Positions 12,339-62,045 of a DNA stretch of 64,000 nucleotides are shown here, piece by piece (the stretch's first letter is position 1; every line of letters begins with the position of its first letter). The stretch covers positions 2,611,501-2,675,500 of the forward strand of contig NZ_CP124576.1 in NCBI RefSeq assembly GCF_000281715.2, written 5' to 3'. Source of the stretch: Sphingobium sp. AP49 (GTDB lineage Bacteria > Pseudomonadota > Alphaproteobacteria > Sphingomonadales > Sphingomonadaceae). A model generated the notes under the pieces. It was not told where the DNA came from. It saw nothing but the letters and a program-made list of their open reading frames with translations, and searched no databases. A program made the position numbers and the translations under genes.

Positions 12339-12418
12339 AGATCTGCGAGACCGCCAGAGCGGGGGGAAGTGCGGCGGCCTCATCGAATATAACGGACCAT
12401 TGAAGGGAAGGTTCCCAC

Positions 12419-13039
12419 TTATTGCTGATGCGGCAGCAATTCGATGAACAGCCCTTCGGCATCGGCGCACAACAGGTCGCCATCGCGCAGTTCGCCGCGC
12501 ACGAAACGCTTGCGCCCCTCGACCTTCGTCACCCAAGCGCTCACCTGCAATTCCTTGTCGATCGGCGTGATCGCCCGATAATTGACATGTAGATAGGCGG
12601 TGCGCGCCATGCGCTGGGCGCTCATATTCGCCGGCAGCCCCAATATCTCGTCGAACAGCAAAGCCACCGCCCCGCCATGGGCGGCATAATTGGCGCCCAG
12701 ATGGAAGGCGCCAAAGGTCACCCGGGCATGCAGCGAATCGTCGCCCATCTGATCGGGGATGAAGGCCGGCGCGAACACCTGGCCATGGCCCGGCGCATCG
12801 CGCACCCGGCCGAACATGCGATGCGCCTCTTCCGCCACCATCGGCGTCAGCCGCTGCGTCCAGGCGGCAAGGTCCGCGTCCAGCGCCTGCGCCGTAGCGT
12901 CGTCCAGCTTGGCCGCCGCGACATGATCCAGGAAATCGCGCAGCCGATCGATCATGCGCGCATAGGGCGTATCGCCCGTCAGCCAGCGCCCGCCCAGCAG
13001 ATCCCGATCCTCATTCTGCGATGCTGCGCCGTCCGACAT
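12419..13039 (-). CDS. PaaI-type hotdog-fold acyl-CoA thioesterase
   Basis: This 206-residue protein carries the hotdog-fold thioesterase signature HGGAVALLFDEILG, in which the Asp/Glu after the long helix is catalytic in PaaI-like enzymes. Family members hydrolyse acyl- or aryl-CoA esters and often relieve stalled CoA intermediates in catabolic pathways. ATG 13039 was chosen because GAGAGGAA lies upstream; two ATGs further upstream would add residues unlike the family. It is the last gene of the minus-strand operon with TetR, FbiC, the F420:NADPH reductase and a thiolase, 114 bases after the thiolase stop. Confidence 0.85.
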   Translation of the reverse strand: MSDGAASQNEDRDLLGGRWLTGDTPYARMIDRLRDFLDHVAAAKLDDATAQALDADLAAWTQRLTPMVAEEAHRMFGRVRDAPGHGQVFAPAFIPDQMGDDSLHARVTFGAFHLGANYAAHGGAVALLFDEILGLPANMSAQRMARTAYLHVNYRAITPIDKELQVSAWVTKVEGRKRFVRGELRDGDLLCADAEGLFIELLPHQQ

Positions 13040-13153
13040 GCCCAAATTCCTCTCTCTGCCATCCTGCTTAGGCATGTCTGGTGCGCAGAGGGAAGCCCCG
13101 TCCGGGCGGGAGGCGCAGCAGCGCCGGGACATCATCGCCCCGGCGCCGCATCG

Positions 13154-14326: not shown

Positions 14327-14348
14327 GTTTCACTCCTTCTGGCGGCGA

Positions 14349-15014
14349 TCAGACGCCGGTGATGCGGATGCCGGATCCCGGCACCTTATATTTGCGGTTG
14401 AGCGCGATCAGGACGGAGGTCAGCCCCTCGGCCACCACCGAATTGCACAAGGGCCCGGCATTCCAGGCGCGCAGGCCGATTTCCTGCGCCAGTTCGACCA
14501 CCTGGTCCGCCGCCTCGCTGTCGTCGGCGCAGACCAGCACGTCGCACTCGATCTCCTCGTCCAGCTTGGTCAAATGATGCGCGCTGATATTCTGGAAGGC
14601 GGACACGACGCGAACGCCATCGCCCAGCATCTTCTGCACCGCCTCGACCGCCGATCCGCCTTCGGGCAACTGCACCCGGCTGACCTTGGGCGGCACCAGT
14701 GGCACGGTCACGTCGATCAATATCTTGCCCGCCAGCGCGTCGGCGACATCCTTCACCGTCGATTGCTGCGCAGCATAGGGCACGGCCAGCACGATGATGT
14801 CGGCCTGCGCCGCCGCATCGGGATTGGCCGCGCCGACGACCGAACTCCCGCCCAGCGTCGCGTTCATGGCATCGGCCGCTTCCTGCGCCCGCTCGGCGGT
14901 GCGGCTGCCGATGATGACCTTGTGTCCCTTGTGCGCCCAGCGCAGCGCCAGGCCGCCGCCTTCCTTGCCGGTCCCGCCAAGCACGGCGATCGTCGCCAAA
15001 GCTTCATTCTGCAT
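14349..15014 (-). CDS. npdG: F420:NADPH oxidoreductase (NpdG/Fno-like)
   Basis: This 221-residue protein has the N-terminal NADP-binding signature of the Fno/NpdG family: IAVLGGTGKEGGGLALRWA, then VIIGSR. The last segment (GLRAWNAGPLCNSVVAEGLTSVLIALNRKY) matches the F420-binding half of these enzymes. Fno transfers hydride between NADPH and coenzyme F420. ATG 15014 was chosen because AGGAGAGG lies seven bases upstream, inside the end of fbiC; the two genes overlap by 11 bases, so translation is probably coupled. The direct overlap with an FO synthase gene makes the F420 assignment strong. Other NADP-binding members of the same superfamily exist, so cofactor use should be tested. Confidence 0.88.
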   Translation of the reverse strand: MQNEALATIAVLGGTGKEGGGLALRWAHKGHKVIIGSRTAERAQEAADAMNATLGGSSVVGAANPDAAAQADIIVLAVPYAAQQSTVKDVADALAGKILIDVTVPLVPPKVSRVQLPEGGSAVEAVQKMLGDGVRVVSAFQNISAHHLTKLDEEIECDVLVCADDSEAADQVVELAQEIGLRAWNAGPLCNSVVAEGLTSVLIALNRKYKVPGSGIRITGV

Positions 15015-17424
15015 ATTCAAACCTCTCCTGGTTCGTATCGGCCTCGCGCCGCCGCTTGCGCGGGGGCGTCAGGACCATGGGTGTCAGTTCCGCCGCGGTC
15101 ATTCCGCGTGCATGGATATCCGCGCTCACGCCGCCATAGGCGGTGCTGCGCTGCCGGGGCGTACGGTCGATCGACCGGATCAGCGCCTCCATCGCGGCGG
15201 GCGGCATTTCCTGGCCATGCTGGGTGCCGGCCGCGCGCGAGATGCTCTCGTTCATCAGCGTGCCGCCCAGGTCATTGGCGCCGCCCTCCAGGCAGGCTTT
15301 CACCCCTTCCGGCCCCAGCTTGACCCAGCTCGTCTGGATCGACCGGATATGGGGATGCAGCGCCAACCGCGCGACCGCGTGCATCAGCCGCACCTCGCGG
15401 AAGGTCGGGCCATGGCGCGACTGGCCGCGCACGCCCATCGGCGCCTCCATATGGACGAAGGGCAAGGGCACGAATTCGGTGAAGCCGCCGGTCCGCCGCT
15501 GCAGGTCGCGGATGCGGATCAGGTGCCTTGCCCAGTGGCGCGGCGTGTCGACATGGCCGAACATGATCGTCGCAGTGGTGGTGAAGCCCACGCGATGCGC
15601 GGTCTCGATCACCTCCAGCCATTGCGCCGTGTCCAGCTTGTCGGGGCAGATGATCGCCCGCACCTCGTCATCCAATATCTCGGCCGCCGTGCCGGGCAGC
15701 GTGTCGAGCCCCACCGCCTTCAGCCGGCGCAGGAAATCCTCGACCGGCAGGCCCAGCGTCGCCGCGCCCTGCCACACTTCCAGCGGGGAGAAGGCATGGA
15801 TGTGCATCTCGGGCACCGCCGCCTTCACCGCGCGGGCCAGGTTGAGATAGGTGTCGCCGGTATAATGGGGGTGGATACCGCCCTGCAGGCAGACTTCGGT
15901 GCCGCCCCGCTCCCACGCCTCACGGGTGCGGCGGACCACTTCCTCCAGGTCCAGGTCATAGGGCTTGCCGCGCAGCGCCTCCGCCTTGTCGCCCTTGGAA
16001 AAGGCGCAGAAGCTGCATTTATAGGCGCAGATATTGGTGTAGTTGATGTTGCGGTTGACGACATAGCTGATCGTGTCGCCCATCTCCTGCATCCGCAGGG
16101 CGTCCGCGCTGGCGCAGACATGCACCAGGTCGGTCTCGCGCGCGGTGAACAGCGCCTCGATCTCGGCTTCTTCCAGCAGCGCCCCGGTCATCGCCCGGTC
16201 GACGATCGCCGCGATCGCGGGATCGGCCGGCAGCGCCGACGGCCGCGTGACGCGCGGCTCCAGCGCGATGCCCGGCGACCAGCTATCCTCGCGCGCAAAG
16301 CCCATTGCATCGGCATGGGCCAGCACATGGCGGACCATCGCCTGGTCCTGCCAGCGCTCATTATCCTGCGCATAGGCGGGATAGACCGGCAGCCGGGCGA
16401 CCAGCATCCGCCCTTCGCCCTCGGTCGCGGCGCGCAGCCGCTCGACCGCCGGCCAGGGCGCTTCCGGGTTCACATGGTCAGGCGTCACCGGCGACACCCC
16501 GCCCCAGTCATTGATCCCCGCCGCCATCAGCTGGGGGAAGTCCGCCGCCGACAGGTTGGGCGGCGCCTGGATATTCATCTCCGGCCCAAGGATCAGCCGC
16601 GCCACCGCGATCGTCCACAGCAATTCGTCCATGTCCGGTTCGGGCGCATCGGCCATCACCGTGCGTTCCTTGGCCCGGAAATTCTGGACGATCACTTCCT
16701 GGATATGGCCATAGCCATCCTGCAGGTCGCGGATCGCCTCCAGCGCCTCGATCCGTTCCTTGCGCGTCTCGCCGATGCCGATCAGGATGCCCGTGGTGAA
16801 GGGGATGGCCAGTTCCCCCGCCAGCCGGATCGTCTCCAGCCGTGCCGCCGGCTCCTTGTCGGGCGAGCGATAATGGGCGCCGCCCTTGCGGCACAGCCGA
16901 TCGGACACCGACTCCAGCATCAGCCCCTGCGACACCGAAACCCGGCGCAGACCGGCCATTTCCTCGCGGGTCATGACCCCGGCATTGATGTGCGGCAGCA
17001 GCCCGGTCTCGTCGCGCACCAGCGCCGCCATTTCCGCCAGATAGGACAAGGTGCTGTCATGGCCCAGCCGCGCCAGTTCCTCGCGCGCGGCGGCAAAACG
17101 CAGCTCCGGTTTGTCGCCCAAGGTGAACAGCGCTTCGGTACAGCCCGCCGCCTTGCCGGCGCGCGCCACCGCCAGCACGTCCTCGCGCGTCATATAGGCA
17201 TTTTCGCCCGGCCGTGGCGGCTGCGAGAAGGTGCAATAATGACAGAGATTGCGGCATAGCTGGGTCAGCGGAATGAAGATCTTGCGCGACCAGCTCTGCA
17301 CCCGGCCATGGCCTTCGTCGCGCAGCGCCGCCGCCTGCGCCATCAGCTCGGCCAGCGGCATCGCCAGCAGCTCTGCCGTGCGCATCCGCTCCGCTTCGCC
17401 GATCCCGTCCAATCCTGCCATCAT
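15004..17424 (-). CDS. fbiC: Bifunctional FO synthase (CofG-CofH fusion, FbiC), F420 biosynthesis
   Basis: This 806-residue protein has two radical-SAM halves. The first holds the iron-sulfur motif CRNLCHYC (C57, C61, C64; CofG half) and the second CAYKCSFC (C466, C470, C473; CofH half). Together they join 5-amino-6-ribitylaminouracil and tyrosine to form FO, the deazaflavin core of coenzyme F420. Family words include ENAYMTREDVL, GILIGIGETRKER and the second-half segment DTISYVVNRNINYTNIC. Fusion of the two halves is the actinobacterial and proteobacterial form; archaea have two proteins. The start is ATG 17424 or the next codon. The other F420 genes (fbiA/cofD, fbiB/cofE, fbiD/cofC) are not in this window. 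It follows a TetR gene by 51 bases. Confidence 0.95.
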   Translation of the reverse strand: MMAGLDGIGEAERMRTAELLAMPLAELMAQAAALRDEGHGRVQSWSRKIFIPLTQLCRNLCHYCTFSQPPRPGENAYMTREDVLAVARAGKAAGCTEALFTLGDKPELRFAAAREELARLGHDSTLSYLAEMAALVRDETGLLPHINAGVMTREEMAGLRRVSVSQGLMLESVSDRLCRKGGAHYRSPDKEPAARLETIRLAGELAIPFTTGILIGIGETRKERIEALEAIRDLQDGYGHIQEVIVQNFRAKERTVMADAPEPDMDELLWTIAVARLILGPEMNIQAPPNLSAADFPQLMAAGINDWGGVSPVTPDHVNPEAPWPAVERLRAATEGEGRMLVARLPVYPAYAQDNERWQDQAMVRHVLAHADAMGFAREDSWSPGIALEPRVTRPSALPADPAIAAIVDRAMTGALLEEAEIEALFTARETDLVHVCASADALRMQEMGDTISYVVNRNINYTNICAYKCSFCAFSKGDKAEALRGKPYDLDLEEVVRRTREAWERGGTEVCLQGGIHPHYTGDTYLNLARAVKAAVPEMHIHAFSPLEVWQGAATLGLPVEDFLRRLKAVGLDTLPGTAAEILDDEVRAIICPDKLDTAQWLEVIETAHRVGFTTTATIMFGHVDTPRHWARHLIRIRDLQRRTGGFTEFVPLPFVHMEAPMGVRGQSRHGPTFREVRLMHAVARLALHPHIRSIQTSWVKLGPEGVKACLEGGANDLGGTLMNESISRAAGTQHGQEMPPAAMEALIRSIDRTPRQRSTAYGGVSADIHARGMTAAELTPMVLTPPRKRRREADTNQERFEYAE

Positions 17425-17475
17425 CCCGCTCCGCTTGTTTCGTCTTCTATGTTCTGATTGTGATTGCGCCCCGGT

Positions 17476-18195
17476 TCAACCGACAGGACCCGGCCGATCC
17501 GCAATAGCGCCGTCGCGTTGCCCCAGCCCCTTGAGCATCGCCGCCGGAAGATCCGCCGGCGCTTCCAGCAGCGCCACCAGTGTCTGCAGGAAATGCTCGA
17601 CGCTTGCCTCGCTGCCCCACATCGGATGCGCCCGGCTTTCGTCGGCCAGCGCCCGCTGCCGCGCCGAAAGCACCGCGCTCAGATAAGCCCCCATGAACAC
17701 GAAGCGCTGGTTCTGCAGCGCCACCGGCAGGTCCGCCATCATCCCGCGCAAATGGTCGAGACACCGGCCATAGGCATTGTTCCAGGCCGGATCGATCGCA
17801 TCCAGCATCATGTCGCGATGGGTCATGGCAAAGATGACGATGAACTGGACATAATGGCTGTCGGGCAGCGCCAGCACCGGCCGGACCAATATCTCCACCA
17901 CCTCGCGGATCGTGCGCGGCCCACCCTGCGCCTCCAGCCCGTCGAGCGCCGCATTGCGCTCCCGATCCAGCGCTATCGCGCCGTCCATCACCAGCGCCCG
18001 GACCAGCGCCTCCTTCGACCCGAAATAATAGCTCACGGCGCCGTGATTCTTCTGCCCCGCCGCCGCCGCGATCTCGCGCACGGTCACGCCATCGACGCCC
18101 TTTTCGGCGAACAGGCGCAACGCCACCTGCTTGATCTGCTCGGCAGCGGATCCGCGGGTGGCATCATCGGCCTTGGCGAGTTGAAGTCTGACCAT
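17476..18195 (-). CDS. TetR/AcrR family regulator, first gene of the F420 operon
   Basis: This 239-residue protein has an N-terminal TetR helix-turn-helix (LRLFAEKGVDGVTVREIAAAAGQKNHGAVSYYFGSKEALV, residues about 26-65) and a C-terminal ligand-binding domain. The HTH wording with NHGAVSYYF is typical of regulators of sphingomonad acyl-CoA catabolic clusters. It is divergent from the ten-gene operon starting at 18291 and is cotranscribed with fbiC, npdG, a thiolase and a thioesterase. The palindrome TGCAAT-N5-ATTGCA lies four bases before its start codon and suggests autoregulation. The inducer is probably an acyl-CoA or related intermediate of the neighbouring pathway, which is inference. Confidence 0.9.
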   Translation of the reverse strand: MVRLQLAKADDATRGSAAEQIKQVALRLFAEKGVDGVTVREIAAAAGQKNHGAVSYYFGSKEALVRALVMDGAIALDRERNAALDGLEAQGGPRTIREVVEILVRPVLALPDSHYVQFIVIFAMTHRDMMLDAIDPAWNNAYGRCLDHLRGMMADLPVALQNQRFVFMGAYLSAVLSARQRALADESRAHPMWGSEASVEHFLQTLVALLEAPADLPAAMLKGLGQRDGAIADRPGPVG

Positions 18196-18198
18196 GAG

Positions 18199-18215
18199 TG
18201 CAATTTCTCATTGCA
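18199..18215. promoter_or_regulatory. Inverted repeat TGCAAT-N5-ATTGCA, candidate TetR operator
   Basis: Arms TGCAAT (18199-18204) and ATTGCA (18210-18215) form a perfect inverted repeat in the 95-base gap between the TetR gene and the divergent phosphotransferase gene. Both strands' transcripts would start near it. Binding here could repress both operons. Confidence 0.55.
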
Positions 18216-18290
18216 ATGCTGGTTCGTCAAGTGCATTATCCAATTGACCTAATCGACGGCTAACAGTCGATAAAAGCGAGGGATGCCTAA

Positions 18291-19313
18291 GTGGAATCAG
18301 CGGTCGACATCGAGTCGCTGGCGGCGTGGATGACGGATCAGGGGCTTGGCACCGGTCCGATCGACAACGTGACGCCGCTTGCCGGGGGGACGCAGAATAT
18401 CCTGCTGCGCCTGACCCGCGACGGCCGCGACTATATTTTCCGTCGCCCGCCGGCGCACCCCCGCCCCAACAGTAATGAAACCATGCGGCGCGAGGCCCGG
18501 CTGCTGCGCGCCATCGCCGGCACCAATGTCCCCCATCCCGCGCTGATCGCCGATTGCGGCGACGAAAGCGTGCTGGGCGTCGCCTTCTACCTGATGGAGC
18601 CGGTCGATGGCTTCAATCCGGTCGGCCAGCTGCCCATGCCCCATGCCGGGTCGCCCAAGATGCGCCACGCCATGGGCCTGGCCCTGGTCGACGGCATCGC
18701 CGCATTGGGCGCGCTCGATCATCAGGCGCTGGGTCTCGCCGATTTCGGCCGGCCCGACAATTTCCTCGGCCGCCAGGTCGATCGCTGGCGCAGCCAGCTT
18801 GCCGGCTATGGCGAATTTGCCGACTGGACCGGGCCGCAGGCGCTGCCCAGCGTCGACGCCATCGCCGCCTGGCTGGAACGACACCGCCCGGCCGATTTCA
18901 CCCCCGGCATCATGCATGGCGACTATCATCTCGCCAATGTCATGTACCGCCCCGACAGCGGCGATCTTGCCGCGATCATCGACTGGGAACTGGCGACGAT
19001 CGGCGATCCGCTGCTGGACCTGGGCTGGGTGCTCGCCACCTGGCCCGACGGCAGCGGCGCCAGCACCGTGTCGGTCACGCCGTGGGAGGGTTTCCCGACG
19101 CCCGCCGAACTGGTCGCGCGCTATGGCGCCGGCTCCGCGCGCGATCCGTCTGCGGTCGACTGGTATCATGTCCTTGCCTGCTACAAGCTCGGCATCCTGC
19201 TGGAGGGCACCCATGCCCGCGCCTGCGCCGGCAAGGCGCCACGCGACACCGGCGACCGGCTCCACAGCCGCGCCATCCACCTTTTCGACCGCGCCCAGGC
19301 GCTGATCCGCTGA
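18291..19313 (+). CDS. APH-type phosphotransferase, LvaA/ACAD10-11 kinase-like
   Basis: This 340-residue protein has an aminoglycoside-phosphotransferase/choline-kinase fold. The catalytic loop is MHGDYHLANV (D211, N216) and the metal-binding motif is IDWE (D231). The N-terminal ATP-binding part shows GGTQNILLRLTRDGRDYIFRRPP. In animal ACAD10/ACAD11 this domain is fused to an acyl-CoA dehydrogenase, and in Pseudomonas LvaA it is a separate kinase; both phosphorylate the hydroxyl of 4-hydroxyacyl-CoAs. The acyl-CoA dehydrogenase gene two places downstream fits that role. The start is GTG 18291, with GAGGG eight bases upstream. The LvaA helper LvaB is not seen. It is the first gene of a ten-gene operon. 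It is not expected to be an antibiotic-resistance kinase. Confidence 0.87.
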   Translation: MESAVDIESLAAWMTDQGLGTGPIDNVTPLAGGTQNILLRLTRDGRDYIFRRPPAHPRPNSNETMRREARLLRAIAGTNVPHPALIADCGDESVLGVAFYLMEPVDGFNPVGQLPMPHAGSPKMRHAMGLALVDGIAALGALDHQALGLADFGRPDNFLGRQVDRWRSQLAGYGEFADWTGPQALPSVDAIAAWLERHRPADFTPGIMHGDYHLANVMYRPDSGDLAAIIDWELATIGDPLLDLGWVLATWPDGSGASTVSVTPWEGFPTPAELVARYGAGSARDPSAVDWYHVLACYKLGILLEGTHARACAGKAPRDTGDRLHSRAIHLFDRAQALIR

Positions 19314-19314
19314 C

Positions 19315-20076
19315 ATGCAGGAAGGATGTTCCCCCTTGGGCAATGAACTGGACTTCACCGGAAAGACGGTGCTGGTGGTCGGCGGATCGAGCGGCATCGG
19401 CAATGGCATGGCCCAGGCCTTCCTGAAGCGCGGCGCCCGCGTCCATGTCTGGGGCACGCGCGCCAGCGCCGCCGACTATGCCGGCGAGGAAGGGTCGGAC
19501 CTCGACGGCATCGGCTATACCCAGGTCGATGTCAGCGATCCCGCCGCGATCGCCGCCGCGCCCGCCCCCTTCGATGCGCTCGACATCCTCATTCATTCGC
19601 AGGGTGCCGTCCTCTATCGCCGCCAGGAGTTCGAGGTCGACGGCTGGAATAAGGTGATGGCGGTCAATCTCGACTCCATCCTCCACATCTCCAACCGCTT
19701 CAGGGATGCGCTGGCCGCCACCAAGGGCGCCGTCATCGTCGTCAGCTCGATCGGCGGGTTCAAGGCGACCTTCGGCAACCCCGCCTATGCCGCGTCCAAG
19801 GCCGGCGCCGTCAATCTGGTCCGCGCGCTCGCCATCGCCTGGGCGGGCGACGGGATCCGCGTCAACGGCATCGCCCCCAGCCTGGTCGACACAAAGATGA
19901 CCAAGGTGACGATGGACAATGACGAGCGGCGCGACCGCGCCTTGTCGCGCATCCCGCTCGGCCGCTTCGGCTCGGTGGACGAGATGGCGGGGGTCGCTTT
20001 GTTCCTCGCCTCTTCCCTCTCCACTTATATTTGCGGGCAGACGCTGATCGTGGACGGCGGCCTCACGCTGACCTGA
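19315..20076 (+). CDS. Short-chain dehydrogenase/reductase (SDR)
   Basis: This 253-residue classical SDR has the cofactor motif GGSSGIG (residues 23-29) and the catalytic Tyr-Lys pair in [10 protein letters not shown] (Y158, K162) with the preceding Ser in VVSSIGG. It is an NAD(P)-dependent oxidoreductase of a ketone or hydroxyl. In the Pseudomonas levulinate operon an SDR-type enzyme (LvaD) interconverts the 4-oxo and 4-hydroxy groups; a similar role is plausible here by gene order. ATG 19315 follows the kinase stop by one base; a TTG at 19336 has a better ribosome binding site (GCAGGAAGG) and may be the true start. Confidence 0.9.
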
Positions 20077-20119: not shown

Positions 20120-21349
20120 ATGGATTTCGAATATTCCGACAAGGTGCAGGCGCTGCGGGCGCAACTCACCGATTTCATGGACGCCCATGTCTATCCGATC
20201 GAGAAGGAACGGGATCATTTCCACCATGATCCCGCCCATCTGTGGCAGCGCTGGCCGGGCACCGAGACGATCAAGGCCAAGGCGAAGGAAGCGGGCCTGT
20301 GGAACCTGTTCCTGCCCCATGAATATGGGACATGGAGCCCCGGCCTCACCAACCTCGAATATGCGCCGCTGGCCGAACTGATGGGCCGGGTGATCGGATC
20401 GTCGGAATATTATAACTGCTCCGCGCCCGATACCGGCAATATGGAAGTGCTCGCCCGCTACGGCACGCCCGAGCAGCAGGAAAAATGGCTCAAGCCCCTG
20501 CTCGCGGGCGATATCCGCTCCTGCTATGTCATGACCGAGCCAGGCGTCGCCTCGTCCGACGCCACCAATGTCGAAACGACGATCGTCGCCGATGGCGACG
20601 ACTATGTCATCAACGGCCGCAAATGGTGGATTTCGGGCGCACTCGATCCGCTGACCAAAATCTATATCCTGCTCGGCCGCACCCCCAATGCGGACCGGCC
20701 GCGCCACCAGCAGCATTCGCAGATCCTGATCCCGGCCGACACGCCGGGGATCGAGATCGTTCGCCCGCTCGACGTGATGAACGCCGTCCACTCGCCCGGC
20801 GGCCATGCCGAAATGGTCTTCAAGGATGTGCGCGTGCCAAAGGAAAATCTGATCCTGGGCGAAGGGCGCGGGTTCGAAATCGCCCAGGGTCGTCTGGGGC
20901 CGGGCCGCATCCACCATTGCATGCGCCTCATCGGCCAGGCCCAGCGCGCGCTCGAATATATGGCCCGCCGCGTCGACAGCCGCGTCGCCTTCGGCCGCAA
21001 GCTCGCCGACCAGGGCAGCATCCGCCAGGATATCGCCTTGTCCTTCTGCGAGATCGAACAGGCCCGTCTGCTGACGCTCAAGGCCGCCGACGCGATGGAC
21101 CGTCACGGCAACAAGGTCGCCAAGGATCTGATCGCCGCGATCAAGATCGTCGCCCCGCGCATGACCCAGACGGTCGCCGACCGGGCGATGCAGGTGTTCG
21201 GCGGCATCGGCATGGCCAGCGACTTCCCGCCTGCCGCCGCCTTCATGAATGCGCGCTACCTGCGCCTCGCCGACGGGCCGGACGAAGTCCACATGGCCCA
21301 GCTCGGCAAGCTCAAGATCGCCGAACTCAACGCATTGCCGCAACGCTGA
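20120..21349 (+). CDS. Acyl-CoA dehydrogenase, LvaC/ACAD11-like
   Basis: This 409-residue flavoprotein matches acyl-CoA dehydrogenases. Visible blocks are [21 protein letters not shown] (FAD/substrate region), [25 protein letters not shown] and the C-terminal [24 protein letters not shown] block followed by LADGPDEVH. The last wording is typical of the ACAD10/11 and LvaC branch. In that branch the enzyme acts on a 4-phosphoacyl-CoA and loses phosphate to give an unsaturated acyl-CoA. ATG 20120 has AAAAGGA nine bases upstream. It lies in one operon with the phosphotransferase, SDR, transporter and CoA ligase. Confidence 0.92.
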
Positions 21350-21377
21350 GAGACGCAAGAGGGCGAAGGGAAGGATC

Positions 21378-22730
21378 ATGCTGATGACCAGCCAGGAAAC
21401 AGCCCCGGACGGCCGCGATACCCAGCAACTGGGCACCGCCTGGTGGATGGTGGCGGTGCTGTTCGGCCTCTATGTCCTGTCCTGGGTCGACCGGTTGATC
21501 GTGTCGATGCTGGTCACGCCGATCAAGGCGCATCTGCTGCTCAGCGATGTGCAGGTCAGCATGATCACCTCGACGTCCTTCGCCATCTTCTACGCCATTT
21601 TCGGCCTGCCGCTCGGCTGGGCTGCGGACCGCTATTCGCGCCGCTGGATCATCTTCGGCGGCGTCGCGCTCTGGGCCGTCGCCACGACCGCCTGCGGCTT
21701 CGCGCAAAGCTATGAGGCGCTGCTGGTCGGCCGCATCTTCGTCGGCGTGGGGGAAGCGGCGCTGCTGCCCGCCGCCTATTCGCTGATCGCCGACGCCTTC
21801 CCGCCGCGCCTGCTGACCCGCGCCACCTCCACCTTCCAGATGGCCGGCAAGGTCGGCTCTGCGACGGCATTTGCCCTGGGCGGCGTCGCCATCGCCTTCG
21901 CCGCCGCGCATAGCGGCATCCATATTCCCTTCCATGGCCCGGCCCAGCCCTGGCAGCTGGTGATGATGATGGTCGGCGTGCCCGGCCTGCTCATCGCCCT
22001 GCTGGTCTTCACCTTTCCCGAACCGGGCCGCCGCGGCGCGACCAGGGCCGCGCGCCCGGTCGCGGAAAAGGGCGCGATCGCCGGCTTCGTGCGCCAGAAC
22101 TGGCGGCTGCTGGCGCTGATGCTGGTCGGTACATCCTGCCTCGCCATGTGCGGCTATTCGATGACCAACTGGGTGCCCGCCTATATCGAACGACATTTCG
22201 GCTGGAAGCCAGTGCAATATGGCGTGGCGTTGAGCCTGATGAACATCGTGTCGGCCGTGTCGCTGGTGATCAACGGCTGGATCGTCGACCGTCTGTTCGT
22301 GCGCGGCATGAAGGACGCCCATCTGCGCTTCTACAGTTGGCTGATCCTCGGCTTCCTGCCGGTGATCGCCTATATGTTCTTCGCCACCAACGTCTATGTC
22401 TTCCTGGTCTGCTACTGCGTGGCGCAGTTCATCACCGTACCCTTCATGGTCTATGTCTCCTCGATCATGGGGCTGATCGCACCGGCGACGATCCGCGCGC
22501 GGATGCTGGCCTTCTTCCTCTTCGTCTTCACCATATTGGGCCTGGGCGCCGGCCCGGCGATCGTCGCCGCGCTCACCCAATATGTCTTCCGGTCGGAAGC
22601 CGCGCTGGGCCAGTCGCTGGCGGTGGTCGTCACCGTCTGCTCGGTCGTCGCCCTCCTCTCCTTCCGTATGGCCCTGCGCTACCTCGCCCCCACCATCGCC
22701 GCGCGTGCCGTCCACGCGCCGGCCGCCTGA
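21378..22730 (+). CDS. MFS transporter (Spinster-like)
   Basis: This 450-residue membrane protein has about twelve hydrophobic segments and the major-facilitator loop motif GLPLGWAADRYSRR between segments 2 and 3. The start of segment 1 (LYVLSWVDRLIVSML) is typical of Spinster-like transporters common in sphingomonad catabolic clusters. It probably brings the organic-acid substrate across the inner membrane; the direction and substrate are inferred from the operon. ATG 21378 has GGAAGGA just upstream. The first 43 codons of the longer open frame belong to the end of the previous gene. Confidence 0.9.
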   Translation: MLMTSQETAPDGRDTQQLGTAWWMVAVLFGLYVLSWVDRLIVSMLVTPIKAHLLLSDVQVSMITSTSFAIFYAIFGLPLGWAADRYSRRWIIFGGVALWAVATTACGFAQSYEALLVGRIFVGVGEAALLPAAYSLIADAFPPRLLTRATSTFQMAGKVGSATAFALGGVAIAFAAAHSGIHIPFHGPAQPWQLVMMMVGVPGLLIALLVFTFPEPGRRGATRAARPVAEKGAIAGFVRQNWRLLALMLVGTSCLAMCGYSMTNWVPAYIERHFGWKPVQYGVALSLMNIVSAVSLVINGWIVDRLFVRGMKDAHLRFYSWLILGFLPVIAYMFFATNVYVFLVCYCVAQFITVPFMVYVSSIMGLIAPATIRARMLAFFLFVFTILGLGAGPAIVAALTQYVFRSEAALGQSLAVVVTVCSVVALLSFRMALRYLAPTIAARAVHAPAA

Positions 22731-22741
22731 AAGGACGCCTG

Positions 22742-24277
22742 ATGTCACTCACCCTCCAGGCTGTCGCGCCCGACCGTCGCACCGACATGGCGCTGACCGA
22801 CGAGCGTGTCTCGCTCGACTGGCTGCAACTGGATGATCGGCTGAACCGCGCCGCCAATGCCCTGAACGGCCTCGACCTGCACGAACGCCGGGTCGCCGTC
22901 TTCGCGCCCAACAGCGCTGAAACCGTGATCGCCTATGTTGCCTGTCTGGAGGCCGGCATTTCCAGCGTCCCGGTCAGCTTCCATCTCACCCCGTCGGAGG
23001 CCGCCTATATCCTCAAGGACAGCGGCGCCGTCGCCCTGCTGGTCGGCCCGGAAACGATGGAGGCGGGCCTTGCCGCCGCGGCCGAGGCCGGCGTCGCCAC
23101 CGTCATCGGCTGGCGCTGCCCCGATCATGAGAGCGTGATCCATTGGGAAGAATGGCTTGCCGCCGCCTCGACCGCCGAGCCTGACCCCAGCATGCCACCG
23201 CTGCCCCATCTCCATTATACCTCCGGCACCACCGGCCGGCCCAAGGCCACCGAGACCCCGCCGCAATATTTCCCGCGCGTCGCCACGGTGCAGGCCTTGG
23301 CGGAAACGGTCCGTGCCCGCATCACGCCCTCGCCCGGTATCGCCGTCGGCCCGCTCTATCATACCGGCCCGCTCGGCATGGCGCGCAACGTCTTCGGCGG
23401 CATGAGCCTCATCACGGTCGAGCATTTCGACGCGGAAAGGGCGCTGGCCCTGATCGAGAAATATCGGGTCGCCGGATCGGTCATGGTCCCTACCCATTTC
23501 CAGCGCATGCTCGCCCTGCCGGAAGAAGTGCGCGCTAAATATGACGTCTCCAGCATCCAGCGCCTCGCCCATACCGGCGCAGCCTGCCCCCGCGCCGTCA
23601 AGCAGGCGATGATCGACTGGTTCGGCCCGGTCCTGGTGGAGGCCTATGGCGGCACCGAGGCCGGCTCCACCACCTTCATCACCTCGCCCGAATGGCTGGA
23701 GCGTCCGGGATCGGTCGGCCGCGCCTTGGCCCCGTTCGAAACCGTCATCTATGGCGATGATGGCACGGTGCTGGGCGCCAACGAGGTTGGCCAGGTCTAT
23801 TTCCGCGACACCAGCGGCCATGGCATCGTCTATCGCGGCGACCCGGAAAAGACCGCCGCCGCCCATATCGCGCCCGGCATCTTCACCCTGGGCGAAATGG
23901 GCTATGTCGATGATGCAGGCTATCTCTTCATCACCGATCGCGTGTCCGACATGATCGTGTCGGGCGGCGTCAACATCTATCCGGCGGAATCCGAACATGT
24001 GCTGCTGCGCCATCCCAAGGTGGCCGACATCGCCGTGGTCGCGGCCCCCAATGCAGAAATGGGCGAGGAAGCCCGCGCGCTGGTGATCCCGCGCGACCCG
24101 TCCGATCCGCCGACCGCCGACGAACTCAACGCCTTCTGCCGCGCCAGCCTCGCCGGCTATAAATGCCCGCGCGGCTACGAGATGGTCGATGACATCGGCC
24201 GTACCATCATGGGCAAGGTCAACAAGAAGGCGCTGCGTCAGCGCTTCTGGCCGTCCGACCGGACGATCGGGGGCTGA
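22742..24277 (+). CDS. Acyl-CoA synthetase (AMP-forming)
   Basis: This 511-residue ligase activates a carboxylic acid with ATP and CoA. The phosphate-binding loop is YTSGTTGRPK near residue 160, the adenylate motif is YGGTEAG, and the C-terminal domain holds ITDRVSDMIVSGGVNIYPAE and the catalytic Lys region GKVNKKALR. All expected blocks are present. It lies 11 bases after the transporter gene and five bases before the PQQ dehydrogenase gene. By analogy to LvaE it would load the imported 4-hydroxy or keto acid onto CoA. The acid itself cannot be told from sequence. Confidence 0.93.
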   Translation: MSLTLQAVAPDRRTDMALTDERVSLDWLQLDDRLNRAANALNGLDLHERRVAVFAPNSAETVIAYVACLEAGISSVPVSFHLTPSEAAYILKDSGAVALLVGPETMEAGLAAAAEAGVATVIGWRCPDHESVIHWEEWLAAASTAEPDPSMPPLPHLHYTSGTTGRPKATETPPQYFPRVATVQALAETVRARITPSPGIAVGPLYHTGPLGMARNVFGGMSLITVEHFDAERALALIEKYRVAGSVMVPTHFQRMLALPEEVRAKYDVSSIQRLAHTGAACPRAVKQAMIDWFGPVLVEAYGGTEAGSTTFITSPEWLERPGSVGRALAPFETVIYGDDGTVLGANEVGQVYFRDTSGHGIVYRGDPEKTAAAHIAPGIFTLGEMGYVDDAGYLFITDRVSDMIVSGGVNIYPAESEHVLLRHPKVADIAVVAAPNAEMGEEARALVIPRDPSDPPTADELNAFCRASLAGYKCPRGYEMVDDIGRTIMGKVNKKALRQRFWPSDRTIGG

Positions 24278-24282: not shown

Positions 24283-26356
24283 ATGCGTCTTGCGTCCCTC
24301 ACTCTGCCGTTTCTGGCCTTGCTCGCTGCCTGCGCGCCCTCCGGACAGACCCGGCGCGACGGCACCGACTGGCCCGGCTATGGCGGCATCGATGAAAATC
24401 ACTACAGCCCGCTCAAGGACATCAACGACCGCAATGTCGGCCGGCTCGGCCTCGCCTGGTATCAGGATATCGACGGCGGCGGCTCCAGCCTGACCGCACC
24501 GATCGCGGTCGACGGCATCCTCTATTATGCCTCGGGCTACAGCGTCGTTCACGCGGTCGACGCCACAACCGGCCATGAACTATGGACCTATGATCCGCAA
24601 AGCTGGAAGGCCGCCGACAAGAAGATGCGCGGCGCCTGGGGCAGTCGCGGCATCGCCTATGACAATGGCGCCGTCTATGTCGGCACGATCGACGGCCGGC
24701 TGATCGCCATCAATGCCCGCACCGGGCACAAGCTCTGGTCGACCCAGACCATCGGCAAGGATGACGAACGCTATATCAGCGGCGCGCCCTGGGTGTTCAA
24801 CGGCAAGGTCTTGATCGGCCATGGCGGCGCCGATTTCGCCCCGATCCGCGGCTATGTCACCGCCTATGACCAGAAGACCGGCAAGCAGCTCTGGCGCTTC
24901 CACACCGTGCCCGGCGACCCGAAACTCGGCTTCGAGAACAAGGCGATGGCGATGGCCGCCAAGACATGGACCGGCGAATGGTGGAAATATGGCGGCGGCG
25001 GCACCGCCTGGAACGCCATGGCCTATGACCCCAAATATAACCGCATCTATATCGGCGTCGGCAATGGCTCGCCCTGGAACCAGAAGATCCGCAGCCCGGG
25101 CGGCGGCGACAATCTCTTCCTCTGCTCGATCGTCGCGCTCGATGCCGACACCGGCGAATATGTCTGGCACTATCAGACCAATCCGGGCGAAACCTGGGAC
25201 TTCAACTCGGCGATGGACATGGAACTCGCCCGGCTGAAGATCGACGGGCAGGAACGCGACGTGTTGATGCACGCGCCCAAGAACGGCTTCTTCTACGTCA
25301 TCGACCGCGCCACCGGGAAACTGATCTCCGCCCGCAACATCGTGCCGGTCAACTGGGCCAGCGGCATCGACGTGAAGAGCGGCCGGCCGATCGAAAACCC
25401 CGCCGCCCGCTATCCCGGCGGCAAGGCGGCGATCGTCTATCCCTCGCCCTTCGGCGCCCATAATATCGAGGCGATGTCCTTCAATCCGGGCAGCGGCCTC
25501 GTCTATATTCCGACGATGGATCAGGGCCGCGTCTATATCGACCCGGCCGAACCACTAAAGGGCTGGAAGCATCTTGACGGCCAGCGCATCAGCGTCGGCA
25601 CCGGCGCGCCGCCGCCCGGCGTCACGCCCGATCGCCCCGCCACCAGCTTCCTGCTCGCCTGGAACCCGGTGACGCAGAGCGAGGCCTGGCGCATTCCGAT
25701 GCCCGGCCTGCGCGGCGGCGGCGGCACCGCGACCACGGCCGGCAATCTGCTGTTCCAGGGCAATGCCGGCGGCAAGTTCGTCGCCTATGCCGCCACCAGC
25801 GGCAAGCCGCTCTGGTCGTTCGATGCCCAGACCGCCGTGATGGCCCAGCCGATCAGCTATCGCGCGCGCGGCAAACAATATGTGACGGTGATCGCCGGCT
25901 CCCGCTTCCCCAGCGCCATCGGCCTGCCGCGCGAATGGAATTATCGCACCCAGCAATGGCGCGTCCTGACCTTCGCCCTCGATGGCAAGGCGGCGCTGCC
26001 CAAGGTCGATCCCGTCGACATGCCGGTGATCGATGATCCTGCCTTCACGGTCGATCCCGCCAGGGCCGCCATTGGCGCCACCGTCTTTGGCCAGCGCTGC
26101 TCCATCTGCCATGGCGCCAACGCCGTGTCCGGCGGCGCCGCGCCGGACCTGCTCCAGTCGGGCGTTCCGCTCGACACCGCCAGCATGAAGGATGTGCTGC
26201 ACAACGGCATCCTGCGCGAACGGGGCATGCCGCGCTTCCAGGAACTGACCGACGAAGAGATCGCCGGGCTCCAGCATTATTTCCGCCAACGCGCCCGTCA
26301 GGTGCTGGCCGCGCAATCCGCCGGTCAGCCGGGCGCCCAAACGCACAGAGGCTTGA

Positions 26357-26370
<14 letters not shown>
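24283..26370 (+). CDS. PQQ-dependent quinohemoprotein alcohol dehydrogenase, lipoprotein
   Basis: This 695-residue protein has an N-terminal PQQ beta-propeller and a C-terminal cytochrome c domain with CSICH (C606, C609, H610) and a likely axial Met in ERGMPRF. This is the type II quinohemoprotein alcohol dehydrogenase layout. The propeller shows GGGDNLFLCSIVALDADTGE and WDFNSAMDMELA. It begins with a lipoprotein signal with lipobox LAAC (C17), so it is probably anchored in the membrane and faces the periplasm. The vicinal Cys-Cys pair of classical quinoprotein alcohol dehydrogenases is replaced by Arg-Gly (RGAWGSRG). PQQ synthesis genes are not in the window. It overlaps the FadJ-like gene by 14 bases. 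Confidence 0.92.
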
Positions 26371-28428
<2,058 letters not shown>

Positions 28429-28432
<4 letters not shown>

Positions 28433-29580
28433 TGAAGGGCAACAAGATCGCCATCACCGGCATTGGCGAAACCGCTTTCCTGCGCAAGGGCGAGGAAACG
28501 GTGATGCAGATGATGACCCGCGCCAGCCTGGCCGCGATCGCCGATGCGGGCCTCACCCCCGCCGATATCGACGGCCATGTCAGCAACAAATATGTCGGCC
28601 ACCCGTCGGAGGAGGTCGCTCATGCGATCGGCGCCGCCACCCGGCGCTTCACCGCCGTCGCCGACACGGCGGGCGGCACGGCCACCACCGGCGACGCGCT
28701 GCGGCTGGCGCAGCTCGCGATCGAGGCCGGGCTCGCCCGCCATGTCCTCGTCCCCTATGCCATCCGATCGACCAAGCCGGGTGGCGTCTATGGCTTCCAC
28801 GCGCGCGAGCCGCAAAAGGCGGGGCTGGAAATGCCCGCCGGCTTCTTCGGCCAGCCCACCTATTTCGCGACCATGGCCAATCGCTACGCCCATGAATTCG
28901 GCATGAGCGAGGCGGAACTGGCCTCGGTCTCGATGACCTACCGCGCCTGGGCGGCGCTGACCCCCGGCGCCCAGAAGCGCGATCCGATGGACCTCGACGC
29001 CTATCGCCAGACGCCGATGATCTCGACCCCGCTGCGCGTCGCCGACTGCTGCCTCACCACCGATGGCGGCGGCGCCTATGTGGTGAGCGCAGTGGAGGCC
29101 GCCCGTGACCTGCCCCATCCGGTGATATCGGTGCAGGGCGTCGGCATTGGCTACAACAATTACCCCCATGGCGTGCTGTTCACGCAGAAGCCCTGCACCT
29201 TCGACTATCCCGGCTGGGACTCGGCGGCACAGGCCTATGCGATGGCCGGCGTCGATCCCAAGGATCTGGACCTCGCCCAGGTCTATGACGGCTTCTCCAT
29301 CTCGGCGATCGTCCAGACCGAGATGCTGGGCCTGTGCGATCGCGGCGAAGGCGCGCGCTTCTACGCCGCCGGCCATGCCAAACCGGGCGGCCGGATGCCG
29401 GTCAACACCAGCGGCGGCCATATGTCGGGCGGCTATGTCCCCGGCATCAACCTGCTGATCGAGGCCGTGCGACAGCTCCGCGGGCAGGAGGGCGACCGCC
29501 AGGTGCCCGACGCGCGCCTCTGCGCCGTTGCTGGCCTGGGCGGCAATAATCATTCCACCACCATCCTTGCGAGGGACTGA
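28429..29580 (+). CDS. Thiolase-like (SCP-x/Ltp-type) protein, probably aldolase rather than thiolase
   Basis: This 383-residue protein has the thiolase fold of the lipid-transfer/SCP-x group. By eye alignment the catalytic residues of true thiolases are missing: the nucleophilic Cys region reads DTAGGTATTGDAL, the His region reads SGGHMSGGYVPG with Tyr at the His position, and the second Cys region reads CAVAGLGGN. Tyr residues in VYDGFS and GGYVPG are kept. This pattern resembles Ltp2-type retro-aldolases of steroid side-chain breakdown, which need a DUF35 partner; such a partner gene starts three bases later. The start overlaps the FadJ-like stop (ATGA). Confidence 0.85.
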
Positions 29581-31095: not shown

Positions 31096-32073
31096 TCAGC
31101 CCATCTCGATCACCACCTTGCCCTGCGCCTTGCGGTCCATGATCCAGCGGATCGCCTCCCGGCTCTCGTCAAAGCCGAAGCGCGCGCCGATCGCCGGCCG
31201 CAACCCGCCCTGCTCATACCAGTCATAAAGCTGCGCCATATTGGCGGCATGGATGTCCGGCTCGCGCCGGCTGTGCATCCCCCATGTCATGCCGACGATC
31301 GATGCCGTCTTCACCAGCGGCAGGTTCAACGGGATCGCCGGAATGCTCCCGGCGGCAAAGCCGACCACCAGATAGCGCCCGTCCCAGCCCATGGTGCGGA
31401 AGGCCGGCTCGGCCAGATCGCCGCCGACCGGATCGAAGATCACATCGACGCCGCGCTCCCCCGCCAGCGCCTTCACCGCCTGCTTGATGTCGACCTGCGC
31501 ATAATTCACCGTCTCGTCCGCGCCATGCGCCCGCGCCAGATCCAGCTTCTCCGCGCTGGAGGCCGCCGCGATCACCCGCGCCCCCATGCGCTTGCCGATC
31601 TCCACCGCCGCCAGCCCGACGCCGCCCGCCGCGCCCAGCACCAGCAGCGTCTCGCCGGCCTGCAACCGCCCGCGCTGGCGCAGCCCGTGCAGCGCCGTCG
31701 CATAGACCATGGTGAAACCGGCCGCGACGTCGAATTCCATCGCATCGGGAATGATGCTGGTGCGGAAAGCCGGCGCCACTGCCTGCACGGCAAAGGCGCC
31801 CTGGAACGGGATCGCCGCCACCCGGTCGCCGATGCGAAAGCCGTTGACGCCCTCGCCGATCGCATCGACCACCCCGGCCGCCTCGCCGCCGGGGATGAAG
31901 GGCAAGGGCGGCTTGGTCTGGTAGAGGTTCTGGATCATCAGCGCGTCGGGGAAATTGACGCTCGCCGCCCGCACCGCCAGCCTGATCTCGCCCGGCCCCG
32001 GCTGGGGCACGGGCACGTCACGAAACGCCAGTTGCTCGGGCGCGCCATGCGCCTCGCACATCAGCGCCCGCAC
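31096..32073 (-). CDS. Zinc-free MDR family NADPH:quinone oxidoreductase-like protein
   Basis: This 325-residue protein is a medium-chain dehydrogenase/reductase with the quinone-oxidoreductase layout. The GroES-like N-terminal half carries VRAASVNFPDALMIQN and PGGEAAGVV, and the NADPH site is LGAAGGVGLAAVEIGKRMG. No catalytic zinc Cys/His set is present. Family members reduce quinones, enones or enoyl-CoAs. It lies three bases after the SnoaL-like gene in the minus-strand operon 38604-31096. Its substrate is probably an unsaturated intermediate. Confidence 0.88.
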   Translation of the reverse strand: MRALMCEAHGAPEQLAFRDVPVPQPGPGEIRLAVRAASVNFPDALMIQNLYQTKPPLPFIPGGEAAGVVDAIGEGVNGFRIGDRVAAIPFQGAFAVQAVAPAFRTSIIPDAMEFDVAAGFTMVYATALHGLRQRGRLQAGETLLVLGAAGGVGLAAVEIGKRMGARVIAAASSAEKLDLARAHGADETVNYAQVDIKQAVKALAGERGVDVIFDPVGGDLAEPAFRTMGWDGRYLVVGFAAGSIPAIPLNLPLVKTASIVGMTWGMHSRREPDIHAANMAQLYDWYEQGGLRPAIGARFGFDESREAIRWIMDRKAQGKVVIEMG

Positions 32074-32076: not shown

Positions 32077-32724
32077 TCAGCTACCCAGAAACTGCTGGCG
32101 CATCTTGTAATAATCGTCGCTCGGATATTTCTCGCTATGCTGCCCCGCCGGCCAGTCGGCATAGGGCGTCTGCGCGGGTTCGGGCGGCGAGGTATAGTCG
32201 GACAGGCCCCGGCGACGGATGATCTTCCACACCCCGTTCCGCCGTTCCAGATCGTCGAGATAGCGGCCCTGGAAGAAGACATCCTCCTCGCCTCCGCCTT
32301 CCTTGCGGTCGCGCCGATGCTGCGCGAAATAATAGCATTCGGAAAAAGCCTTGTCCCCCTTCACATCGACCGAGACATTGGTGATGTGGTGGCAGGCATA
32401 TTTGAGCGTCGACACGATCTTGAACGCGAAGCCGACGAAATCGGACGACTTGCCCTCGAACTTGCCATGCTTGTGCGTCGATTCCGGCCAGAACAGCGAT
32501 CGCAGCAGCGCCTCGTCCGCCCGGTCATTGGCCCGCGCATAGGCATAGAGGAGTTCGGTGATCGCCTGCTTGGACTCGATGATGTCCAGCCGCTGGGCCA
32601 TGTCCATGCCGCTCGCCTTTCCCTTTGGCGCGGCGGCCGATGCTTCGGCGGCGGCGGCCATGCCGATAGGCAGCGCCAGCATGGCGGCCAGCGTGCCGCG
32701 ACGATTGCGTTCTTCCATGCTCAT
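32077..32724 (-). CDS. SnoaL-like/NTF2-fold protein with export signal
   Basis: This 215-residue protein has an NTF2-like SnoaL domain (QRLDIIESKQAITELLYAYA, then DEALLRSLFWPEST, HHITNVSVDVKGDKAFSECYY, and NGVWKIIRRRGLSDYT). Such domains act as small dehydratases, isomerases or cyclases, or simply bind ligands. The N-terminus (EERNRRGTLAAMLALPIGMA) has twin arginines before a hydrophobic stretch and looks like a Tat-type export signal. The ATG at 32724 overlaps the LLM gene stop as ATGA; ATG 32718 also fits the ribosome binding site. It may act on the product of the neighbouring oxidoreductase. Confidence 0.8.
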   Translation of the reverse strand: MSMEERNRRGTLAAMLALPIGMAAAAEASAAAPKGKASGMDMAQRLDIIESKQAITELLYAYARANDRADEALLRSLFWPESTHKHGKFEGKSSDFVGFAFKIVSTLKYACHHITNVSVDVKGDKAFSECYYFAQHRRDRKEGGGEEDVFFQGRYLDDLERRNGVWKIIRRRGLSDYTSPPEPAQTPYADWPAGQHSEKYPSDDYYKMRQQFLGS

Positions 32725-33728
32725 TCTCCCGGATTTTCCAGCAGGCCCGGCTCGGCGCGCAGGCGCGGCAGCACTTCCTTCTCGAACAGGCGCAGGCTGC
32801 GCCACGACACTTCGGGGTCCAGCCCGCCCAGCAGCGCGTGGAAGGTGACGGCGGTGCCCCGACCCAGCCCCTTGAGATATTCGAAACATTCGTCGGGCGT
32901 CAGCAGCTTGATGTTCGGCATCGCCTTCAGCCCCTCGATCGTTTCGGCGGGCTGGTAACGGGTCTGGCCGGTGCCGCGCTCCTTGGCCCATTCGGCATAG
33001 GCGTTGGTCGCATAGGCGACATGCGGCGCCACCAGCGGCCAGTCACGGTCCGGATCGTCGGAGACATAGAGGAAGCTCGCGGCCGGCTTGCGCAGCTCCT
33101 CCGGCGGCGGGAACCCGGCCTTTTCGCGCTCTTCCTTGTAGAGGGTGAACAGGTCGGGATGGCCGGGGAAATATTGATAGCCGCCCTTGGCCGCGCGGAT
33201 CGCCGACTTGTCGGTCGACCCGCCCATATAGATTTTCGGGCCGCCTGGCGTCGCCGGTGCCGGCGTCACCCGCACAGTGCGGTCACGAAACTCGAACGGC
33301 TCGCCGGTCCAGGCCAGCTTCAGCGTGGCCATCGCCTCGTTCATGATCGCCAGCCGCTTGCTGATGTCCTTGCCGAACATCTCGAACTCATGCGGGCGAT
33401 AGCCCATGCCGGCGGTCAGCCACACACGGCCGGGCGCGATATTGTCCAGCACCGCCAGATCCTCGGCCAGCCGCAGCGGATCGTGCATGGTCACGACCAG
33501 CGCCGACAGATGCGCGACGATAGTGTCCGTCGCCCCCAGGATCGACGCCGCCTGCACCATGGAGGACGGGCAATAGCCGCCCTCCGCGCCATGATGCTCG
33601 GCCAGGAACACCTGCGTGAAGCCAAGCTTATCGGCCCATTGCGCCTGCTCGATCGCGGTGCGGTAAAGCACGGGATGCGGCGCGCCGAAATCCGGCCGGT
33701 TCATGTCGTAACGAAGGTTCAACTGCAC
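32721..33728 (-). CDS. LLM-class (luciferase-like) flavin- or F420-dependent oxidoreductase
   Basis: This 335-residue protein has the TIM-barrel fold of the luciferase-like superfamily: LYRTAIEQAQWADKLGF, FLAEHHG (E44, H45, H46), LAEDLAVLDNIAPGRV and GMGYRPHEFEMFGKD. The superfamily contains both FMNH2-dependent monooxygenases and F420-dependent dehydrogenases and reductases. The EHH motif is that of bacterial luciferase-type monooxygenases, and a flavin reductase gene lies in the same operon, which favours a two-component monooxygenase. F420 genes at 14.3-17.4 kb leave F420 use possible. No signal peptide is present, so it is cytoplasmic. Confidence 0.88.
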   Translation of the reverse strand: MQLNLRYDMNRPDFGAPHPVLYRTAIEQAQWADKLGFTQVFLAEHHGAEGGYCPSSMVQAASILGATDTIVAHLSALVVTMHDPLRLAEDLAVLDNIAPGRVWLTAGMGYRPHEFEMFGKDISKRLAIMNEAMATLKLAWTGEPFEFRDRTVRVTPAPATPGGPKIYMGGSTDKSAIRAAKGGYQYFPGHPDLFTLYKEEREKAGFPPPEELRKPAASFLYVSDDPDRDWPLVAPHVAYATNAYAEWAKERGTGQTRYQPAETIEGLKAMPNIKLLTPDECFEYLKGLGRGTAVTFHALLGGLDPEVSWRSLRLFEKEVLPRLRAEPGLLENPGE

Positions 33729-36164: not shown

Positions 36165-36286
36165 CACGCACTCCTGTTCGGCGGTCTGCGCCGCCTCTTG
36201 TTCGGATCTGGCCGATAGTGCGCGGAATCGCGCCTCCGACCTTTCCCTTGAAACAGACACGCTTTTTCCCGGTAGCGCAAGCAATA

Positions 36287-37772: not shown

Positions 37773-37826
37773 CTCACTCTCCCATGCTGATGCCCATATT
37801 AGGCCTGGGGCATGCCTAGACGAGGC

Positions 37827-37842
37827 GCGCACCATGATGCAA
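37827..37842. promoter_or_regulatory. TetR-type operator copy (left of a pair)
   Basis: GCGCACCATGATGCAA fits GCA-N6-TGCAA. It is the mirror partner of the next site: bases 37829-37842 and 37849-37862 are perfect 14-base inverted arms around GAAAAT. It lies 55 bases before the crotonase start and just past the TetR stop. Confidence 0.6.
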
Positions 37843-46379: not shown

Positions 46380-46425
46380 TATGGCTCCTCTCGTGCCCGC
46401 GACCGCCTGCACGCGTCCGTCGGTA

Positions 46426-48585: not shown

Positions 48586-48624
48586 GCTCCTATCTCCCGT
48601 CTCCGCCGATTGCGGCCATTCCTA

Positions 48625-62013: not shown

Positions 62014-62045
62014 GGCTTCTCCGTCCCTGGGGCCTCTTGCCTAGC

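Follow-up and report, generated by a model that had tools for sequence, protein, structure and literature searches.

FO synthase and F420 reductase genes lie within a conserved, probably hydroxy-acid-degrading gene block of Sphingobium sp. AP49

We analysed a 64,000-nucleotide stretch of the Sphingobium sp. AP49 genome (contig NZ_CP124576.1, positions 2,611,501 to 2,675,500; hereafter the window). Here fbiC, for the synthase of FO (7,8-didemethyl-8-hydroxy-5-deazariboflavin), and npdG, for an NADPH:F420 oxidoreductase, follow a tetR gene within a catabolic gene cluster (Table 1). Judging from its gene content, this cluster probably breaks down hydroxylated acids. Within a complete F420 system, the two genes would provide FO synthesis and F420 reduction from inside the TetR operon of a conserved block. 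We hold with fair confidence that the F420 system is built into this presumably TetR-run, hydroxyacyl-coenzyme A (CoA) catabolic block and feeds at least one enzyme of its pathway.

FbiC scored 1143.5 bits against NF006687, the model for bifunctional CofGH (cut-off 1018), and both of its halves exceeded their own cut-offs (CofH, TIGR03551, 577.6 against 374.1; CofG, TIGR03550, 511.3 against 213.35). By these model scores the gene is a fused FO synthase gene. Its translation carries both radical-SAM motifs, CRNLCHYC and CAYKCSFC, which an initial annotation of the sequence had read in it, and its nearest relative is found in Sphingobium scionense (98%). NpdG reached 226.4 bits against TIGR01915 (cut-off 149.8), with the F420:NADP oxidoreductase 5n2i as its best match in the PDB (E 1.7e-37) and 1jax as the next. 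The 11-base overlap described earlier between the two genes was found again, the ATG of npdG lying at 15014 and the fbiC stop codon ending at 15004; a TTG at 15020 is a possible alternative start for npdG. The tetR, thiolase and thioesterase-like neighbours also lie where they had been placed. Besides the overlap, the same-strand run from tetR to the thioesterase-like gene contains gaps of 51, 22 and 18 bp. The same gene order, tetR-fbiC-npdG(-cof)-thiolase, is also found in relatives and is for this reason not regarded as chance. The thioesterase-like gene had no match listed in 80 loci of relatives, nor in the block comparison, and was therefore excluded from the conserved block. The TetR protein is distantly akin to PsrA (44.8 bits, far under the cut-off of 300) and is probably a local repressor.

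The initial annotation had named cofC, cofD and cofE as the genes to look for elsewhere in the genome, and their absence as the result that would speak against an F420 function. The genome sequence, a single contig of 4,506,188 bases with a completeness of 99.99%, holds all three as one cofE-cofD-cofC operon at positions 105110-107344, ~2.5 Mb from fbiC in contig coordinates, and each is the sole match above cut-off (cofD 180.9 bits, cofE 223.8, cofC 134.6). This operon rules out fbiC as an orphan gene and, as far as homology tells, the F420 biosynthesis gene set of the genome is complete. A malic-enzyme-like gene, named by eye, adjoins the operon. The 3-phosphoglycerate (3PG) variant of the cofactor, 3PG-F420, was rejected: where the M. 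rhizoxinica CofC has S162, and Ser or Thr is required, the AP49 protein has a Gly, which matches M. tuberculosis FbiD in the alignment. In the available text of PMC8764529, S162 is a critical residue of the 3-phosphoglycerate-using enzyme; since Gly replaces this Ser, ordinary F420 rather than 3PG-F420 would be expected.

The position of the cof genes varied among relatives. In S. scionense (locus L017) and in loci L018 and L019, npdG and the thiolase gene are separated by cofE-cofD-cofC, so that fbiC-npdG-cofE-cofD-cofC-thiolase form a single run adjoining the cluster. The pair cofE-cofD follows npdG in L031, where the contig ends past cofD, and in L032 (Niveispirillum), which has no thiolase match. 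No cof genes lie between npdG and the thiolase gene in the window, L020, L021, L024, L028 or L029. A single cofE match was found in 23 of 24 genome handles, two of which (G331 and G687) appear to represent a single genome, and none in G206, a fragmented assembly. In S. fuliginis, S. chlorophenolicum and S. estronivorans cofE lies outside the fbiC operon, in the last two on another contig. The AP49 cofE is 73-75% identical to those of these three species and 65-71% to those of G011, G084, G156, G320 and G362, and its identity to that of S. scionense is 48%. Given this divergence from S. scionense, the FbiC-NpdG of one lineage is paired in AP49 with the CofEDC of another, with CofE, CofD and CofC supplied from one separate operon.

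The operon divergent from tetR points to the substrate class. In it the kinase and dehydrogenase halves of ACAD11 have separate homologues, encoded by the first and the third gene respectively. By alignment the kinase keeps the catalytic Asp (ACAD11 D220) and the dehydrogenase keeps the equivalents of R626, H634, R637 and D753. These residues come from the available text of PMC12440821, whose numbering is one above the chain index that we used, and the PDB chains 8v3u (kinase) and 8v3v (dehydrogenase), each differing at one Asp, agree with the placing. As described in that text and in the lva operon work it cites, such a pair phosphorylates 4-hydroxyacyl-CoA, which is then processed to enoyl-CoA. 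The retention of all five checked residues makes it likely that the block degrades 4-hydroxyacyl-CoA. The transporter, ligase, pyrroloquinoline quinone (PQQ)-dependent dehydrogenases, FadB-like enzyme, thiolases, CoA-transferase, luciferase-like monooxygenase (LLM) family protein, reductase and hydratase fit a route in which a hydroxylated or alcoholic substrate is taken up, oxidised and passed through beta-oxidation. In the proposed pathway the block would import an alcohol or acid, which the PQQ dehydrogenases would oxidise and the ligase or CoA-transferase activate. The kinase would then phosphorylate the 4-hydroxyacyl-CoA, and the LvaC-type dehydrogenase would carry out the elimination to enoyl-CoA, for entry into beta-oxidation and thiolysis. 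NpdG would draw on NADPH to make the F420H2 that at least one of these enzymes consumes; the best candidate user inside the block is the LLM protein.

The association between F420 and the cluster was examined in 397 genomes of the same family (taken to be Sphingomonadaceae), with FbiC scored as present at a match of at least 47% identity. F420 had been described as occurring in only some proteobacteria, a statement that can be amended for this family to FbiC in 57 of the 397 genomes; the FbiC query matched in 139 genomes altogether, and the 82 not counted here had, among the matches listed, only scores of 27 bits or less, which we read as biotin-synthase-like noise. All 11 genomes carrying the cluster dehydrogenase at 78% or above were FbiC-positive (P = 2.2e-10; such P values are guides only, because the genomes are related), as was 1 of the 22 genomes in which only a homologue of 60-73% was found. 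The G011 cluster has no fbiC-npdG, its thiolase gene coming straight after tetR, and the FbiC of that genome is on another contig; in G084, G320 and G362 a distance of 16-19 kb lies between the cluster dehydrogenase and an FbiC of a clearly distinct branch (Shimodaira-Hasegawa-like approximate likelihood-ratio test 100, branch 0.44). Physical co-inheritance is therefore not the whole explanation. The finding that the cluster carriers are all FbiC-positive, G011 included, supports F420 dependence of the block, and F420 is probably needed by the cluster's pathway.

Several observations weigh against this interpretation. The cluster dehydrogenase (at least 78%) is missing from 46 of the 57 FbiC-positive genomes, which means that the family also uses F420 for other purposes. 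The LLM gene is missing from 3 of the 11 cluster carriers. The fold of the LLM protein matches both F420 and flavin mononucleotide (FMN) members, with FMN monooxygenases scoring higher, and the protein lies above no NCBIfam cut-off, the best F420 model, TIGR03619, giving 84.0 bits against a cut-off of 166.9. It is likewise below the cut-offs of the FMN-type LLM models TIGR04027 (88.3 against 412.9) and TIGR04020 (82.6 against 244.45).

The LLM protein and the PF01613 flavin reductase could be read as a two-component FMNH2 monooxygenase, perhaps Baeyer-Villiger-like, forming a lactone that would open to the 4-hydroxy acid for the kinase and dehydrogenase. F420 would then serve a different enzyme, in this pathway or elsewhere in the genome. 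We regard this as quite possible, if slightly on the doubtful side. Against it, LLM homologues occur solely in FbiC-positive genomes, 19 in all (15/15 in the family at E <= 1e-60, 4/4 in the class sample at E <= 1e-55), as do orthologues of at least 75% (9/9). A search of 72,556 plasmid records returned four matches at E 1e-40, all from Rhodococcus. The reductase homologues as a whole are also not limited to FbiC-positive genomes (43 of the 397 genomes, 17 FbiC-positive and 26 FbiC-negative), for which reason we do not consider the reductase a likely F420 user in the block; its orthologues of at least 67% fall in FbiC-positive genomes (7/7). The Rhodococcus plasmid locus was rejected as the same cluster: its LLM is 48% alike, but the neighbouring dehydrogenase, kinase and ligase are 27-33% alike, and no match to the ACAD11-type dehydrogenase of the window was listed there. 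Separately, a TIGR03619-type LLM gene and a SnoaL-like gene adjoin F420 genes in G212 (L140 2224-3851) and G201 (L137 2136-3795), a pair of the same kind as the LLM and SnoaL-like genes of the window.

A second alternative is that fbiC-npdG is a passenger F420 module in the tetR operon and serves unlinked enzymes of the TIGR03557, TIGR03619 and TIGR00026 families. Such enzymes exist far from the locus. The TIGR03557 member at contig positions 422203-422763 scored 429.7 bits (cut-off 210.4), though it is under the FGD equivalog cut-off (185.2 of 420). TIGR03619-type genes lie at 1309 and 4403 kb, the NCBIfam scan covering 9 of the 11 LLM genes of the genome (all except L007 and L008). A TIGR00026 (Ddn-like, deazaflavin-dependent) gene at 2223259-2223654 is likely an additional F420 user; genes named by eye as a GntR-like regulator and as EthD-like and SnoaL-like flank it. 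The many FbiC-positive genomes without the cluster dehydrogenase favour the passenger explanation too, as do window-type FbiC without the cluster in L022 and L030 (within the stretches examined) and G331, which is 87% alike in FbiC and has no dehydrogenase match. However, every cluster carrier has FbiC, in G011 outside the cluster, and cluster and FbiC are linked in two FbiC lineages; on this evidence we consider a mere passenger unlikely. The distant F420-type enzymes and the 46 genomes do imply that F420 need not serve the block alone. The original suggestion that an F420H2-dependent reduction belongs to the neighbouring pathway is supported in part, by the cofCDE genes, the tight tetR run, the linkage and the co-occurrence. 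That FbiC supplies only FO as a photolyase antenna, a role FO has in some organisms, is very hard to credit, given that npdG shares the fbiC operon and that the genome also encodes CofE, CofD and CofC.

Regulation was considered from the 95 bases between tetR and the kinase gene. The sequence CGTCAAGTGCATTATCCA lies at 18225-18242, and a 16-base pattern in it recurs in 9/9 aligned relatives. The conserved pattern GATAATnnnnTTGACG (relatives' orientation; limited letters at n) occurs once per locus and once in the window, the counts being made in the same nine relatives and window from which it was derived. An inverted repeat, TGCAA-N7-TTGCA, at 18199-18215 occurs once in the 64 kb and is a candidate TetR operator; its looser core, GCAA-N7-TTGC, was found at the same place in four of the nine relatives (L017, L018, L019 and L031) and was absent at that place in L020, L021, L024, L026 and L032. 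In a sigma-70 scan of 12300-18500 the tetR-kinase gap gave no promoter. It is plausible that the two divergent operons share a promoter region under TetR control. The fuller proposal, in which the block of sphingomonads and some other Alphaproteobacteria is F420-dependent, the LLM protein uses F420H2 despite its FMN-like fold, and fbiC and npdG are co-induced by the same TetR, is one we advance tentatively and with more doubt than conviction.

The conserved block spans ~28 kb (~13.2-40.9 kb of the window; Table 1). It is kept in S. scionense (L017/L182; most genes 96-99%), L018/L184 and L019/L185, and is rearranged in Niveispirillum (L032/L186), G133, G201, G212, G320, G362 and G011. It is rearranged in G084 as well, a placing based on the places of its dehydrogenase and FbiC and on the tree, the block comparison having covered the G084 stretch apart from the half in L132. 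A cytochrome P450 gene occurs in the block of G320 (L134 6563-7789), G084, G362, G133, G212 and L186 and was not seen in the window block. Glycogen-metabolism-like genes (41783-51156) adjoin the block, and gatB, a 139-amino-acid open reading frame, gatA and gatC form one run at 60098-63853, all named by eye.

Table 1 Features of the F420 operon and the adjoining catabolic block (window coordinates; aa, amino acids).
Feature	Position	Strand	Basis
Hotdog (4HBT) thioesterase-like protein, true start uncertain	12419..13135	-	PF03061
Acyl-CoA acyltransferase (thiolase), 390 aa	13154..14326	-	NF005077, 696.8 bits (cut-off 590)
npdG/fno, NADPH:F420 oxidoreductase, 221 aa	14349..15014	-	TIGR01915, Pfam PF03807, PDB 5n2i
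fbiC, bifunctional CofG-CofH FO synthase, 806 aa	15004..17424	-	NF006687, TIGR03550, TIGR03551
tetR, upstream of fbiC, same direction	17476..18195	-	PF00440; fbiC-adjacent homologues in relatives
Divergent tetR-kinase intergenic region, 95 bases	18196..18290	.	Alignment with relatives
APH-type kinase, LvaA/ACAD11 kinase-domain homologue	18291..19313	+	PF01636; PDB 3dxp, 9o56, ACAD11 8v3v
Short-chain dehydrogenase/reductase	19315..20076	+	PF13561
Acyl-CoA dehydrogenase, ACAD10/11-LvaC type	20120..21349	+	PDB 2wbi ACAD11, E 3.5e-122
Major facilitator superfamily (MFS) transporter, start uncertain	21288..22730	+	PF07690
Acyl-CoA ligase (AMP-binding)	22736..24277	+	PF00501/PF13193
PQQ-dependent alcohol dehydrogenase with cytochrome c domain	24283..26370	+	TIGR03075, 491.9 bits (cut-off 480.05); PF01011, PF13442
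FadB/FadJ-like multifunctional enzyme (hydratase, 3-hydroxyacyl-CoA dehydrogenase)	26357..28432	+	PF00378, PF02737, PF00725
Thiolase-like protein	28429..29580	+	PF22691
Zinc-type alcohol dehydrogenase/quinone oxidoreductase	31096..32073	-	PF00107, PF08240
SnoaL-like protein	32077..32718	-	PF13577
Luciferase-like (LLM) oxidoreductase	32721..33728	-	PF00296
Family III CoA-transferase, two domains, start uncertain	33765..36284	-	PF02515, two stretches
Flavin reductase-like protein	36306..36947	-	PF01613
Enoyl-CoA hydratase/isomerase	36951..37835	-	PF00378
Second TetR-like regulator, named by look of sequence alone	37867..38604	-	Conserved in block of L182, L184, L185 and others
Second PQQ-dependent dehydrogenase with cytochrome c domain	38807..40852	-	PF01011, PF13442

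Among known systems, the npd picrate clusters of Rhodococcus and Nocardioides are likewise catabolic clusters with their own NADPH:F420 reductase. Their hydride transferases are known and fbiC is not known to belong to the cluster, whereas the window shows the reverse. In the plasmid F420 operons of Aromatoleum aromaticum EbN1, Novosphingobium resinovorum SA1 and Sinorhizobium meliloti pSymA, F420 genes lie near CoA-type catabolic genes, as in the window, but these catabolic genes differ from those of the block. In SA1 and pSymA the annotation places a TIGR03619 LLM beside the F420 genes or close to them; in EbN1 a PNPOx-like gene precedes the F420 operon of plasmid 2 (L097 17115-23567), in a region rich in insertion sequences. 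The kinase-dehydrogenase pair, with its catalytic residues kept, resembles the lva operon of Pseudomonas putida and mammalian ACAD10/ACAD11; the available text of PMC12440821 mentions no F420 genes for that system, to which the window adds PQQ dehydrogenases, a CoA-transferase and an LLM protein.

F420 genes in Alphaproteobacteria were already known (PMC8498797). The systems covered in the available text of that 2021 review share FbiC, an Fno-type NpdG and CofC/CofD/CofE with the AP49 genome. They differ in that fbiC-npdG here lies in the tetR operon of a specific catabolic block, with CofEDC from another lineage and place. In the same text, Fno and Fgd carry question marks in Alphaproteobacteria, and the F420-dependent enzymes of F420-making bacteria outside the actinobacteria are said never to have been studied experimentally, their role being left open. 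A link between F420 and an ACAD11/Lva-type block was not found among the titles and abstract beginnings listed by searches of the open-licence literature. It is the linkage to this type of block that appears to be new; F420 genes near other catabolic genes were already known.

Culturable relatives, the S. scionense type strain among them, make the block open to experiment: its gene set is defined, and it comes with a likely class of substrate and a candidate regulator site and enzyme. The block also shows that parts of the F420 pathway can swap between lineages and places while a genome retains one complete set. If the fuller proposal is true, the block would represent an F420-dependent degradation pathway with assignable chemistry in Proteobacteria.

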